Shown in pieces: positions 54,979 through 60,178 of a stretch of DNA of 64,000 bases. The translations under genes were made by a program, and so were the position numbers. The stretch is taken from NCBI RefSeq assembly GCF_036067295.1, contig NZ_CP107954.1, positions 4,960,001-5,024,000 on the forward strand, in the 5' to 3' direction. Each line of letters begins with the position of its first letter. Position 1 is the first letter of the stretch. Under the pieces are notes generated by a model. It was not told where the DNA came from. It ran no database searches and was given only the letters and a program-made list of their open reading frames with translations. This stretch comes from Kribbella sp. NBC_00382 (lineage in GTDB: Bacteria > Actinomycetota > Actinomycetes > Propionibacteriales > Kribbellaceae).

Positions 54979-57540
54979 TTGTCGGACGCGGATGGCCGGG
55001 CTGAGGAGAGGCGTGGTTTCGCCGATCTCTTGCTTGACCTGAGGGTCCAGGCAGGACTGTCACAGGAGGAGTTGGCCGACAAGGCCGGGCTCAGCGTGCG
55101 GACCATCCGCGAGCTCGAAGCGGGCCGGGTCGCCCGGCCACGCAAGGATTCTGTACGCCTGCTCGCTGAAGGTCTCGGGCTGCGCGACGGCGACGCCGGC
55201 CGGTTCCTGGCCGCCGCCGGTCATGCGACGGTGCGGCCGGTCATCGCGGTGGCTGATCCCGCGCCGACCGGGTTGCGTTGGCGAGGTACCAGGCCGATCC
55301 CGGACGGTCTCGTCGGGCGCGAGGTCGAGCTGGCGGAGATCGAGAAGCTGCTGCGGCAGAACCGGCTGGTGACGCTGGTCGGGCCGGGTGGAGTCGGCAA
55401 GACGGAGCTCGCGCTGGCCGCTGCCGATCGGGTCTCGTCGGTCGACACGGCCGTGGTGGTCGTCGACCTCACGACGGTGCAGCGCGATGCCGCAGTACCG
55501 TCAGCGATCCTCGATGCTTTCGGTACGGCTCCTGGGACGTCGGATCTGGATGACGTGTTGTCCGGGCGCAAGCCGGGTGACCTGGTGATCGTCGAGGACA
55601 ACGCCGAGCACGTGCTCGACGGGGTCGCGACCGTGGCGAACCGGATGGTGCGCAGCTTCCCGGGGATCGGCGTACTGGTGACTTCGCGGATTCCATTGGG
55701 GTTGCCGGATGAGGTCGTGCGTCGGGTGCAGGTGCTCGGCGTACCGGCCAATGACAAGGATCTGGAGGAGATCGCGGCGTCGCCGGCCGTGGTGATGTTC
55801 TGCCGGCGGGCGGCTCGGGTGCGGCCTGACTTCGCTTTGACTCCTGAGAACGCGGCGACGGTTGCTCGGCTTTGCCAGCGACTGGATGGCTTGCCGTTGG
55901 CGTTGGAGCTTGCGGCTGCGCGGGCTGGGTCGTTGTCGGTGGAGACGATCCTGGCGGCTCTGGATGACCGGTTCCGGTTGTTGTCGGGGCCGCGGCGGTT
56001 TGGGGCGCCGCATCAGCGGACGTTGGCGGACACGATCGCGTGGAGCGTCGACGCGCTGTCGGATCCTGCGCGGCAGTTGCTTTATCGGGCCTCGATGCTC
56101 GGGTCGCCGTTCACCTTGGACGCGGTGGTGGGGGTGTGCACGGGTTCGCCGATCGACGCGTTGGACGTTCCGATGCTGCTCGCTGAGCTGGTGGACAAGT
56201 CACTGCTGCAGCCGGTGCTGGAGTTCGAGGCGCTGTACGGCGCGCGGTACAAGATGCTCGAGACGATCCGCGAGCACGCCTATGCGGGGTTGTCCTCGCA
56301 GGGTACCGACCTGGTGGAGTTCAAGGATCGGACTGTTGCGTGGTGCTCGACGTACGTCGAGTCGCTGGACGGGGCCTGGTCGAGCCCGGACCGCGAGCGG
56401 CGCTACCGGGCGGCCAACGCGAACTCGGCGACCTTCGAGGTCGCCCTGGAGCGGGCATCGGCGCTGGGGGACTGGGACACGGCTGCGGCCATTGTGCTCG
56501 GGTTCCGGATCGCGTGGCAGTACCAGGCGAGCGTGGCCGAGAGCGGGATCCAGTGGGCGAGCGTGTGCGCGGAGAACGTCCACGACAAGGAGGTCAGCGG
56601 TCGACTGCTCGCTATCGCCGGCCGGCTGTCCAACCTGACCGGTGACGTCCGAGCCGCTCGCCGGTACTACGGGGAGGCGCGGACACTCATCTCGCCGTCC
56701 TCGGAGATGGGGCTGATGGCCCGTGGCGGGTGGGTGTCGTCCGGGTCGCTCCTGCTCGACACACTGAGCTTGGCGGAGATACCGGCGCTGGTTGATGACG
56801 CCTTGAAGCATGGCGATGTGCAGCGGTCTGCGACGGTGCAGGCGATCTGTGGGCTCGCGCTGGCTCGGTGGGGGCGGCTGCCTGAGGCCAAGGAGCTGCT
56901 GCTCGCTTGGGAGGCCGCGCTGGCTAATCCGGGGGTGTACCCGGATGAGATCGCGTATATGGCGCTGAGCCGGGTTGAGTCGGAGCTGGGGAATCTTGCG
57001 GAGGCTCGCCGCTGGGCTGAGCTGGCGCGGGGGAGTCAGGCTTCCGATGACCCGGAGCGGACCAAGGTGGCTGGGTGCCTGGCGATGGTGGAGTTCCAGG
57101 CTGGGCGGTACGAGCTGGCGCAGGCGCTGATCGATGAGGCTGATGCTGACATTCGTGGGCATCGCGGGTACTTCGACTACCTGGTGATGCTGTACCGGAG
57201 CCGGCTGGCCCGGCGTACGGGGGACTTGGAGCAGGCTAGGTCGTCCATCCGGGACGCGGTGAGCCGGTTGCTGGTCGAGGGACGGGTTGTTTACCTGCTG
57301 GACGTCATGCCTGAGGCTGTGGCCGTGCTGCATGCGTTGGGGCAGCACGAGCAGGCCGATGCGCTCTGTGGCCAGCTACTGGCCTGGCAACGCACGATGG
57401 ACCCGCCCATGCTCCCCACTGCATGGGCCGTCCTACAGGAGTCCTGCGAGAGCGCCCCGGTCGCCGAAGGCTGGCCCCTGCCGGACCCCGCCGAAGCAGT
57501 ACGCCACATGGCCGACGAACTCCTCGCTGCACTGTCCTAG
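54979..57540 (+). CDS. XRE-HTH / NB-ARC / TPR regulator
   Basis: This 853-residue regulator has an N-terminal helix-turn-helix (residues 12-75, LRVQAGLSQEELADKAGLSV, RTIRELEAGR), an NB-ARC ATPase with Walker A VGPGGVGKTE at 134-143 and Walker B DLVIVEDNAEH, and a long TPR-like C-terminus. It is the XRE counterpart of the BTAD and LAL regulators elsewhere in the window. TTG start at 54979 with GGGGTGACGGG upstream. Its likely targets are unknown; the downstream region is gene-free and carries the RNA candidate at 58195-58428. Confidence 0.9.
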   Translation: MSDADGRAEERRGFADLLLDLRVQAGLSQEELADKAGLSVRTIRELEAGRVARPRKDSVRLLAEGLGLRDGDAGRFLAAAGHATVRPVIAVADPAPTGLRWRGTRPIPDGLVGREVELAEIEKLLRQNRLVTLVGPGGVGKTELALAAADRVSSVDTAVVVVDLTTVQRDAAVPSAILDAFGTAPGTSDLDDVLSGRKPGDLVIVEDNAEHVLDGVATVANRMVRSFPGIGVLVTSRIPLGLPDEVVRRVQVLGVPANDKDLEEIAASPAVVMFCRRAARVRPDFALTPENAATVARLCQRLDGLPLALELAAARAGSLSVETILAALDDRFRLLSGPRRFGAPHQRTLADTIAWSVDALSDPARQLLYRASMLGSPFTLDAVVGVCTGSPIDALDVPMLLAELVDKSLLQPVLEFEALYGARYKMLETIREHAYAGLSSQGTDLVEFKDRTVAWCSTYVESLDGAWSSPDRERRYRAANANSATFEVALERASALGDWDTAAAIVLGFRIAWQYQASVAESGIQWASVCAENVHDKEVSGRLLAIAGRLSNLTGDVRAARRYYGEARTLISPSSEMGLMARGGWVSSGSLLLDTLSLAEIPALVDDALKHGDVQRSATVQAICGLALARWGRLPEAKELLLAWEAALANPGVYPDEIAYMALSRVESELGNLAEARRWAELARGSQASDDPERTKVAGCLAMVEFQAGRYELAQALIDEADADIRGHRGYFDYLVMLYRSRLARRTGDLEQARSSIRDAVSRLLVEGRVVYLLDVMPEAVAVLHALGQHEQADALCGQLLAWQRTMDPPMLPTAWAVLQESCESAPVAEGWPLPDPAEAVRHMADELLAALS

Positions 57541-57640
57541 CCCGCACCCCGCACCCCGCACCCCGCACCCCGCTCTCGGCGCTCCGCCTCCGCACCCCGC
57601 TCTCGGCGCTCCGCCCTCGCACCCGCACCCGCAGTCCTCC
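57541..57640. repeat. Short C-rich tandem repeats after the XRE-NB-ARC gene
   Basis: Four CCGCACC units directly follow the stop codon, then GCTCTCGGCGCTCCGCC occurs twice with a 27-bp period (about 57572 and 57599), and CGCACC again. All frames across it are open because of composition. The bases 57641-58190 are also GC-rich, without a recognisable gene. Confidence 0.7.
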
Positions 57641-58194
57641 CCGCGCCCCCGCCGTCCTCCCGACGCCAGCGCGGTCCCTCGCCGGCGCCCACGCCATTCC
57701 ACCCGGCGCCATTTGTCCCCGCGCTCACGCCGTCCCTCCCCACCCCAACGCCTGGCGACCGGGCCTCCACTCCCTTCGCCTTCCTTCCCTTGCCGCGTCG
57801 AAGGGTGCTGGCGCCTGACGAGCCAGCTCGGGTTTCGTGACGGGGATCGGTGGAAGCTGCCGGGGAACTGCCGGTGCTTCTGCCTCGTCCGGACATGGCC
57901 TGCGGAACAAGAATTACAGCCGTAGGACAGGTTCCACGAGACAGAGATCCGAGACCGGGTTCGAGCGATACGGAAGGAGGCGATGACCATGCCGAGGCAG
58001 ACATGGCTCGCCGGACTGCCGGGAAGCTCGGCCAATCCGGAGCAGGCGACGCGGAGGACATCCGGCAGTCGGACGGTGGGGGCGCCGAACAACTGCCGAG
58101 ATCTCCGGAGTGCTGGCTCGTGTGGAGCTGCCCTACCTCACACCGGGGGCCGTGCACCGTCAGGGCACGTGACCCGGGGCGGGGTCCCAGCAGC

Positions 58195-58428
58195 GACCAG
58201 GCACACGACACAGGGGACGAGTGCCGGTCCGGTCGACACGGGAAAGCCGGCGGGTTTGGTCACCCGCCGGTGGGTCGACCGCTGGGGCTCCCCGGGGGAT
58301 TGCGGTGAGCCTCACAGGGGACGGCTCGCCGCGTAGCCGGTACCAAGCCATGTGAGCTGACACCGAGGGGGAGTCAGCTCTAGCGGCGAGGTGGAGGACC
58401 ACACAGGGGATGGTCCCTCCACCTCGCC
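58195..58428. ncRNA. Candidate structured RNA: five hairpins with recurring AGGGG loops
   Basis: Five hairpins follow each other: 58195-58229 (loop ACACAGGGGA), 58230-58281 (two-tier stem, CCGGCGGGT/ACCCGCCGG inside GGTCGAC/GTCGACC), 58302-58332 (10 bp, loop TCACAGGGGAC), 58354-58380 (8 bp, loop ACCGAGGGGGA) and 58385-58428 (16 bp with one bulge, loop ACACAGGGGAT). Four of the five loops share an AGGGG core, while their stems differ in sequence, which points to selection on loops in a folded RNA. The last hairpin also serves as a terminator for either neighbour. On the minus strand the loops would be TCCCC-rich, like anti-Shine-Dalgarno sRNA loops. Strand and function unknown; no known family recognised. 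Confidence 0.55.
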
Positions 58429-58436
58429 GAGGCGGA

Positions 58437-58955
58437 TCAGGTAACGGCTTGGGCCAGTACTGCGGTCTTGTCGAAGGCGTAGCCGACCATCCAGTGCGGC
58501 TGGAGGCGGCAGTACGCGATCTCGTCGGCCCAGCTGGAGGGGGAGCTGCCGTAGTGGGCCACCAGGTGGGCCTCGATCTCGGCGAAGTCAGGGTGGTCGG
58601 TGGTGAGGAACTCGACCTGCCCGTGGCTGAAGACGCCGATCCGCTCGCCGTCGACGTACGAGATGCTTGCGGCAGGTCTGGCCTTCAGTTGGCGTGCCTT
58701 GGCCGCCTGCATCGACGTGGTGAACACCCAGCGAGCATGCAGGAAGTGGCCGTCGACGGCGCTGATCCTCGGCTCACCCTTTGCGGTCACGGTAGCCAGG
58801 TTGAGCGTGCACATGCCTTGCAGGATCCGGACCAGCTCGGCGGCGGTCAGCCGCCGCTCGTCGCTGATGATCTCGCGCAGATGCTCCGTGGAGCGCTCGT
58901 AGGCCGCCTCGAGCAGCCGCTGCAGGTCCCCGACTTCCTCGCTCGTCTCTTTCAT
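58437..58955 (-). CDS. Pyridoxamine 5'-phosphate oxidase family (split-barrel flavin-binding) protein
   Basis: The 172-residue protein has an N-terminal helix (LQRLLEAAYERSTEHLREII) and then a PPOx-type split barrel: MCTLNLATVTAKGEPRISAV, WVFTTSMQAAKARQLKARP and SYVDGERIGVFSHGQVEFL. These bind FMN or F420, but the reaction is unknown. ATG at 58955 has no distinct ribosome binding site; longer readings cross the promoter of degV. Its 3' end touches the last hairpin of the RNA candidate (8 bp away). It is divergent from degV. Confidence 0.87.
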   Translation of the reverse strand: MKETSEEVGDLQRLLEAAYERSTEHLREIISDERRLTAAELVRILQGMCTLNLATVTAKGEPRISAVDGHFLHARWVFTTSMQAAKARQLKARPAASISYVDGERIGVFSHGQVEFLTTDHPDFAEIEAHLVAHYGSSPSSWADEIAYCRLQPHWMVGYAFDKTAVLAQAVT

Positions 58956-59007
58956 TGACCGAGTCTGACACCGGGCGCGGACGAAAACTGTCCGGTAACC
59001 TCGCTGC

Positions 59008-59850
59008 ATGTCAGCCCGCGTGCACGTCGTCACCGACTCCACCGCGGGTCTGTCGGCGCACGAGGTGCTCCGGCTCCCGCTGACCGTAGTACCGCTGCAG
59101 GTGGTGATCGGCGGGACGGCGTACGACGACGGCGCGACCAGCTCGGACGCCGTCGCGGAGGCGCTGAAGACGTTCACCCCGGTGTCGACGAGCCGGCCCG
59201 CTCCTCAGTCGTTCGCGGACACGTATGCCGAATGCGCCGAGGCCGGGGCCGAGTCGATCGTCTCGATCCACCTGTCCGGCGACATGTCGGGGACGTTCGA
59301 GGCGGCCATGATCGGCGCCAAGGAGTCGCCGATCCCGGTGCGAGTGGTCGATTCGCGGTCGCTGGGGATGGGGTTGGGCTTCCCGGTCCTCGCTGCTGCT
59401 TTGGCTGCCGCTGACGGGGCGGACCAGGCGGGCGTCGAGGCGGCTGCCCGCGCGCGGATGGCTGCGGTCTCGTCGTACTTCTATGTCGACACCCTCGAGT
59501 ACTTGCGCCGCGGCGGCCGGATCGGAGCAGCCCAAGCCCTGCTCGGTACTGCGCTAGCAGTCAAGCCACTGCTGACCATCAGCGGTGGGCGGATCGTCCC
59601 GCTGGAGAAGGTCCGCACGTCAAGCCGCGCAATCGCCCGCCTCGCCGACATCGCAGTCCAGCGCGCCGGTGACGGCCCGGTCCAGGTAGCCGTCCATCAC
59701 CTGGCCAACCTCGACAAGGCCCAGACCCTCGCAGACGGCCTAGCCGACCGCCTCCCACAGGCGGAAGAAATCGTCCTCCGCGAGGTAGGTGCAGTAATAG
59801 GCGCCCACGTCGGCCCCGGCATGCTCGCAGTAGTAATCGCTCCCCGCTGA
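59008..59850 (+). CDS. DegV family fatty-acid-binding protein
   Basis: This 280-residue protein has the DegV fold: VVTDSTAGLS at the start, TSRPAPQSF, SIHLSGDMSGTFEAA and VDTLEYLRRGGRIGAAQALLG. DegV proteins (FakB-like) bind fatty acids for phosphorylation; a FakA-type kinase gene is not adjacent. A -10-like TAACCT at 58996-59001 stands 6 bases before the ATG, so the mRNA is probably leaderless. The last 12 codons are the first unit of a 38-bp tandem repeat that continues beyond the stop. In actinobacteria degV is often found near comEA, as here. Confidence 0.92.
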   Translation: MSARVHVVTDSTAGLSAHEVLRLPLTVVPLQVVIGGTAYDDGATSSDAVAEALKTFTPVSTSRPAPQSFADTYAECAEAGAESIVSIHLSGDMSGTFEAAMIGAKESPIPVRVVDSRSLGMGLGFPVLAAALAAADGADQAGVEAAARARMAAVSSYFYVDTLEYLRRGGRIGAAQALLGTALAVKPLLTISGGRIVPLEKVRTSSRAIARLADIAVQRAGDGPVQVAVHHLANLDKAQTLADGLADRLPQAEEIVLREVGAVIGAHVGPGMLAVVIAPR

Positions 59851-60041
59851 CCCCCGGCATGCCCGTGGTAGTAGTCCCTCCCCGCTGCCCCCCGGCATGC
59901 CCGCGGTACCCCTCGCTTCCCGCTGACCCCCGGCATGCCCGTGGTACCCCTCGCTTCCCGCAGACCCTCGGCATGCTCGCGGTACCCCTCCCTCCCCGCT
60001 GACCCCCGGCATGCCCGCGGTACCCCTCGTTTCCCGCTGCC
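59814..60041 (+). repeat. 38-bp minisatellite starting inside the degV 3' end
   Basis: Six units of exactly 38 bp, beginning CCCCGGCATGC and ending CCCCGCTGAC or similar, start at 59814, 59852, 59890, 59928, 59966 and 60004; a shorter decayed copy follows to about 60075. The first unit is coding: it encodes the last 12 residues of DegV (GPGMLAVVIAPR) and its stop. The units are therefore copies of the gene's own end. 38 is not a multiple of three. The remaining 60076-60178 holds no gene. Confidence 0.92.
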
Positions 60042-60178
60042 CCCGGCGTGCTCTTGTACTCATCCGCCCCTGCCAACCACAGCGACCCGGCGACGCTTGT
60101 CCCGGCGATGCCCGCTGGTGCCAACGCAGGGTGCTGAACCCGGACGGGGATCGTCCGCTAACAGTCCTACGCTGAGGC

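Follow-up and report, generated by a model that had tools for sequence, protein, structure and literature searches.

A conserved structured RNA of Kribbella whose variable hairpins display a common AGGGG-type loop

Why should neighbouring hairpins that differ in their stems agree in their loops? This question is raised by an intergenic region of Kribbella sp. NBC_00382, within a window of 64,000 nucleotides (the whole stretch of DNA analysed here, positions 4,960,001 to 5,024,000 of NZ_CP107954.1), for which an initial annotation had listed five consecutive hairpins at 58195-58428, four of them with an AGGGG loop. Folding of the plus strand bears out both the hairpins and the recurring loop, but not the 234-bp length given for the element: the five hairpins make up the 3' portion of a structured RNA that is about 600 nt long, lies on the plus strand and starts upstream near 57833. 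Moreover, although all five hairpins are real and consecutive, the first two are branches of one domain, which has its own closing helix (Table 1).

When copies from different genomes are aligned in one orientation, the conserved unit is seen to start near 57833 (TTTCGTGACG) and to end with the terminal hairpin, at 58429. A DNA search with 57850-58440 finds the RNA in all 38 Kribbella genomes (source genome included), the 37 other genomes of the genus matching the whole conserved region, and a search with 58160-58450 finds a match in each of the 36 other Kribbella genomes tested. There is one main place per genome in all 38 and the locus is the same throughout, with an NB-ARC gene upstream of the RNA and a DegV gene downstream in 38 of 38 genomes. 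(The product of the upstream gene scores above the Pfam cut-off for HTH_3 and below it for AAA_16 and TPR_12.) An invariant core pattern occurs in 22 records, all of them from Kribbella except one labelled Streptomyces sp. SID13031; this record, NZ_JAAGLV010000017.1, carries the Kribbella RNA, and its strain name looks wrong.

Other genera gave no convincing copy, and plasmids and phages yielded no match to the RNA. A covariance model of the 3' core domain (R1), run over 294 genomes of the order with 12 candidates scored per genome, matches the 38 Kribbella genomes alone; because so few candidates per genome were scored in the large searches, a diverged relative may exist outside Kribbella. 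With filters off, the same model, applied to leuS-degV loci in other families (11 genomes), gives chance-level matches, the best of which (E 0.18) lies inside a methyltransferase-like open reading frame and was rejected. The NB-ARC gene is absent from these 11 loci, except for one distant paralogue in the opposite orientation, and a search of 395 genomes belonging to the class gave no close orthologue of it (35-44% identity at best).

Table 1. Features of the RNA locus and of the second RNA candidate (window positions unless a locus or contig is given).
Feature	Position	Strand	Remarks
XRE-HTH + AAA/NB-ARC-like + TPR regulator gene	54979-57540	+	Directly upstream of the RNA
C-rich low-complexity spacer	57541-57832		Insertion in this species; outside the RNA
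Proposed noncoding RNA gene	about 57833-58430	+	Conserved region TTTCGTGACG... through last hairpin; 5' end approximate
5' hairpin GCCGG..CCGGU	57859-57875	+	98% of cells paired
Long-range domain	57922-58136	+	Closing helix 57922-57933/58125-58136, 12 bp
GGGG-tetraloop hairpin	58061-58101	+	16 bp, 95% paired, 5 double-change pairs
Hairpin CCGGG..CCCGG	58143-58177	+	Outer helix 98% paired
3' core domain	58173-58297	+	Helix 58181-58191/58281-58291 and two branches; covariance model R1
Hairpin A (first hairpin of the initial annotation)	58195-58229	+	Loop ACACAGGGGA
Hairpin B (second hairpin of the initial annotation)	58230-58281	+	Loop TTTGGTC, without AGGGG
Array hairpin 1	about 58301-58333	+	Loop TCACAGGGGAC; part of Kribbella lacks it or has a replacement
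Array hairpin 2	58354-58380	+	Loop ACCGAGGGGGA
Terminal hairpin	58384-58429	+	Loop ACACAGGGGAT here, CCGGAGGGGTG in most species
PPOx (pyridoxamine 5'-phosphate oxidase-like) gene	58437-58958	-	PF01243; convergent, outside the RNA
Second RNA candidate	L176:1360-1540 and L195 (G000:C1 about 718480-718640)		Beside ABC-F gene; conserved GGTGACTTCGGCGGCAAGAGGTGG... body

Is this conserved region an RNA, and on which strand? The stretch 58195-58428 folds far better than shuffled sequences on both strands, reaching -135.7 kcal/mol on the plus strand versus -107.4 +/- 5.2 for shuffles (z -5.4; 0 of 200 as low). For the core of about 480 nt, aligned over 38 sequences, RNAalifold gives -311 kcal/mol on the plus strand versus -256 on the minus strand; alignments with shuffled columns reach -231 +/- 6. 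The helix that closes the long-range domain is 97% paired, with 4 double-change pairs and 116 G-U versus 3 A-C cells; inside the body, the GGGG tetraloop at 58079-58082 and GGUGGGGGCGCC are nearly invariant across the genus alignment. Among the 38 pairs of the 3' core domain 98.1% of cells are paired, as compared with 38-48% for slid controls, and 16 pairs show a compensatory change, a degree of covariation reached by none of 500 shuffles. Within this domain hairpin B is 96-99% paired with multiple compensatory changes, and the core of hairpin A, CACACGA(C/G)ACAGGGGACGAGTG, is identical in all aligned genomes but for one position. The terminal hairpin likewise is paired in 95.7% of cells over its 16 pairs, 11 of which show a compensatory change among 20 distinct sequences (0 of 500 shuffles). 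Because the structure was taken from the same alignments (which are sequence-based, that is, not fitted to structure), these pairing percentages are flattered; given the effect sizes, this is unimportant for the conclusion. Thus compensatory changes in the stems and conservation of the loops among relatives, which had been set beforehand as part of the test of an RNA, were both found, and it is near certain that the locus is a structured RNA gene. A coding signal was sought in the core of about 435 nt, whose length takes all residues modulo 3 across the genomes; long stop-free runs are common in such GC-rich DNA and say little about coding.

The plus-strand structure contains 581 G-U versus 91 A-C cells, whereas the best minus-strand structure contains 246 versus 224, where it should be borne in mind that choosing a structure on one strand biases toward G-U on that strand. 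Since the minus-strand structure shows no such preference, we infer that the transcript comes from the plus strand, which argues against two earlier proposals. One took the minus strand to form TCCCC-rich loops like those of 6C RNA; beyond the G-U counts, the 6C family (RF01066) has no match at the locus at either gathering or permissive threshold. The other derived a small RNA from the 3' untranslated region of the PPOx gene, which would lie on the opposite strand; moreover, PPOx was not detected in 5 of the 38 loci (L027, L035, L036, L037 and L068), all five of which keep the RNA.

What distinguishes the 3' part is the uniformity of its loops. Among the strong array hairpins of the 38 genomes (score >= 9), 48 of 49 have a plus-strand loop with [AGT]GGGG[AT], as compared with 6 (plus) or 4 (minus) of the 296 hairpins of like strength that 400 kb of the source genome contain; hence, together with the covariation, the fixed loops uphold the initial description of a structured RNA with different stems and a common loop. 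The loops are mainly GGAGGGGT, ACAGGGGA, CCAGGGGG and CGAGGGGG. The number of such hairpins ranges approximately from 2 to 8 per genome, in a scan that overlooks hairpin A in most genomes and picks up a few matches outside the array, overlapping the core domain. Extra copies with new stems are seen, for instance, in L010 and L013, whereas in a few genomes (e.g., L012) the scan finds only two array hairpins. This variation suggests that equivalent binding sites have been gained and lost. An intramolecular G-quadruplex built from four loops was also considered, but it is not required, since in some genomes the loop hairpins number only about three.

Does the loop occur elsewhere? The 9-mer CACAGGGGA occurs 22 times in the 8.5-Mb genome, three times within 200 bp at the RNA, and one of the 19 other sites (G000:C1:718621) forms the loop of an 18-bp hairpin adjoining the stop of an ABC-F gene. 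With permuted 9-mers a hairpin score of at least 15 is reached at 1 of 1783 sites, so that one such hairpin among 19 sites is unlikely by chance (about 1%). (A hairpin at another CACAGGGGA site, inside a Rieske-like open reading frame, was judged a chance occurrence.) The DNA around the ABC-F site matches all 38 Kribbella genomes, although in some of them the match takes in the end of the ABC-F coding sequence and a shorter piece of the RNA; outside Kribbella only short matches were found, mostly toward the ABC-F coding end. In each of 30 aligned loci the terminal loop ACAGGGGAT is unchanged on stems of differing sequence, and strong conservation extends over about 130 nt upstream. By inspection, a promoter-like TCGACA-18-TAGNGT (here TCGACA-18-TAGTGT) recurs upstream in the same direction; fold energies (-175.8 versus -174.8) and G-U to A-C counts (178:45 versus 177:93) are weak evidence as to strand. 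This second RNA candidate, which has no match in Rfam, is unrelated to and unlinked from the RNA of about 600 nt, and exposes the same ACAGGGGA loop. That two unrelated RNAs share a loop probably means that some component of the cell recognises it.

The best known multi-site titrating RNAs belong to the CsrA system, and the plus-strand loops had indeed been likened to CsrA sites. This likeness fails on two counts: CsrA (PF02599) is absent from all 38 Kribbella genomes, in a search that found its positive controls, and the main array loops listed above lack A-N-GGA. What remains is a resemblance of architecture. Like CsrB, RsmZ and RsmY, the Kribbella RNA combines several hairpins of different stems with one short G-rich loop motif, varies in copy number of that motif and is supposed to titrate a common binder; unlike them, it has (C)ARGGGG loops, a conserved body of about 400 nt, no CsrA in its genomes and no match in Rfam. 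These Csr/Rsm RNAs (PMC7652899, PMC4005645) serve as the model for a titration reading.

A common partner that recognises the loop is the best explanation for loops that stay fixed, in two unlinked RNAs, on stems that change in sequence and number. Accommodating this, we regard it as probable, though far from assured, that the RNA of about 600 nt acts in trans, its multi-copy loop titrating or gathering a common candidate partner. In outline, a gene downstream of the NB-ARC gene would be transcribed from the plus strand into a structured noncoding RNA, whose conserved, multi-branched 5' and central body would hold the molecule together and whose 3' part would display species-variable hairpins with loops exposing (C)ARGGGG. 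Each repeated loop would be a docking site, with several copies of one partner (most likely a putative RNA-binding protein) bound at a time, and the second RNA would bind the same partner through the same loop. A protein is preferred to an RNA as partner, with modest confidence, because CsrA is excluded, the loops lack A-N-GGA and sites complementary to the loop are not clearly enriched (see below). Titration itself we infer by analogy with Csr/Rsm RNAs, to which this RNA would be analogous without being a member. Several considerations temper the docking-site reading. The AGGGG loop may serve structure instead of binding, neutral duplication could account for part of the spread of array hairpins, and in a few genomes the scan finds only two of these. 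Conservation, moreover, is stronger in the body than in the array, so that the main role may be something other than titration, and the large body may have a function of its own.

How do other explanations fare? That the loops pair with another RNA (by kissing or sRNA-target interaction), the array being a sponge or target set for an sRNA (of 6C type, for instance) that carries a UCCCC(U) loop, we consider unlikely. G-rich loops would pair with C-rich ones, and 6C-type RNAs with C-rich loops are known in Actinobacteria; however, complementary UCCCCUGUG sites, proposed earlier as targets, show no clear excess (22, including the three antisense copies at the RNA, versus 14 for the control), a weak search of this genome and five relatives (150 of about 2,800 candidates scored; one control sub-threshold) found no 6C RNA, and the variable flanks of the loops are more in keeping with a short motif bound by a protein than with extended pairing. 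The RNA might, on the other hand, be the 3' untranslated region of the NB-ARC mRNA, acting in cis on stability or feedback, with hairpins that protect the 3' end. The NB-ARC gene is always there, the RNA starts 13-14 nt past its stop in most genomes, and a consensus scan found no separate promoter for the RNA; yet 313 nt of unrelated, mostly C-rich sequence intervene here, inserts occur at this point in other genomes too, an ornate fold of 600 nt and the conservation of its loops far exceed what protection of a 3' end needs, and the same loop is found in an unlinked RNA. A cis-acting role of this kind is thus unlikely.

The remaining alternatives set the loops aside. One is a large ornate RNA of structural or catalytic function, whose hairpin array would be only a device for assembly or protection. 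In its favour, the body (5' and central) makes up most of the molecule and is strongly structured; near-identical array loops on stems that change in sequence and number favour loop recognition instead and make this very unlikely. Scarcely credible is an array of ordinary bidirectional terminators between convergent genes: the last hairpin is long and lies 8 bp from the PPOx stop, but no T tract was found in 57400-58600, the other hairpins and the body of 400 nt would be left unexplained, termination needs no loop identity, the RNA is kept where PPOx is missing, and the covarying body and the loop statistics already disfavour it.

Extending the docking-site reading, one may tentatively suppose, though we think it more doubtful than probable, that Kribbella has a post-transcriptional network of its own, with (C)ARGGGG as its loop code, in which a putative RNA-binding protein stands in CsrA's place and no fewer than two conserved, unlinked RNAs control it, among them a multi-site RNA of about 600 nt with a species-variable number of sites. 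Few RNA chaperones are known in Actinobacteria. If true, the presence of a Csr-like architecture with a different loop code throughout a genus without CsrA would suggest that Actinobacteria have a global RNA-binding regulator that has gone unrecognised, and the fixed loop is a ready bait in the search for this partner.

The RNA is previously undescribed: Rfam has no matching family, and among open-licence papers no description of such a Kribbella RNA was found. Of all 4227 Rfam families searched against the window, tRNA alone was found; at the RNA locus no family reached the gathering threshold, and matches at permissive thresholds were chance-level. The families that it calls to mind differ from it in specific ways. 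Like 6C RNA it is an actinobacterial hairpin RNA defined by its loops, but it exposes G runs on the supported strand where 6C exposes C runs. Like the large ornate RNAs GOLLD, ROOL and OLE (PMC12286853) it is several hundred nucleotides long and multi-branched, but it is so far confined to one genus, its signature is the repeated AGGGG loop, and the covariance models of these three families have no match. Like Ms1 (RF02566) and 6S it is a single-copy structured RNA of Actinobacteria; Ms1, however, which has been reported for Kribbella, has a gene that adjoins a HAD hydrolase (HAD-IB) gene (PMC9130861), whereas the neighbours here are NB-ARC and PPOx/DegV genes, and the Ms1 and 6S models have no match in the region. 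HAD-hydrolase loci searched for 6C and Ms1 gave one weak Ms1 match, below threshold (32 bits, E 1e-4), at L168:4811-5008 (G000:C1 about 2994810-2995008); it adjoins a HAD hydrolase gene and probably is Kribbella's Ms1.

The flanks of the locus have features of their own. Between the NB-ARC stop and the RNA, 57541-57710 consists of C-rich tandem repeats with units of 7, 20 and 27 bp. At the 3' end of the NB-ARC gene (about 57515-57540; also, e.g., in L013) a valine GTA (94%) and a leucine CTT (84%) close to the stop are unusually fixed in most Kribbella genomes, possibly reflecting a promoter or RNA element that overlaps the coding end. Farther downstream, at 59814-60051, a 38-bp unit is repeated in tandem (6.3 copies, 85% matches); the array spans the end of degV and continues beyond it.
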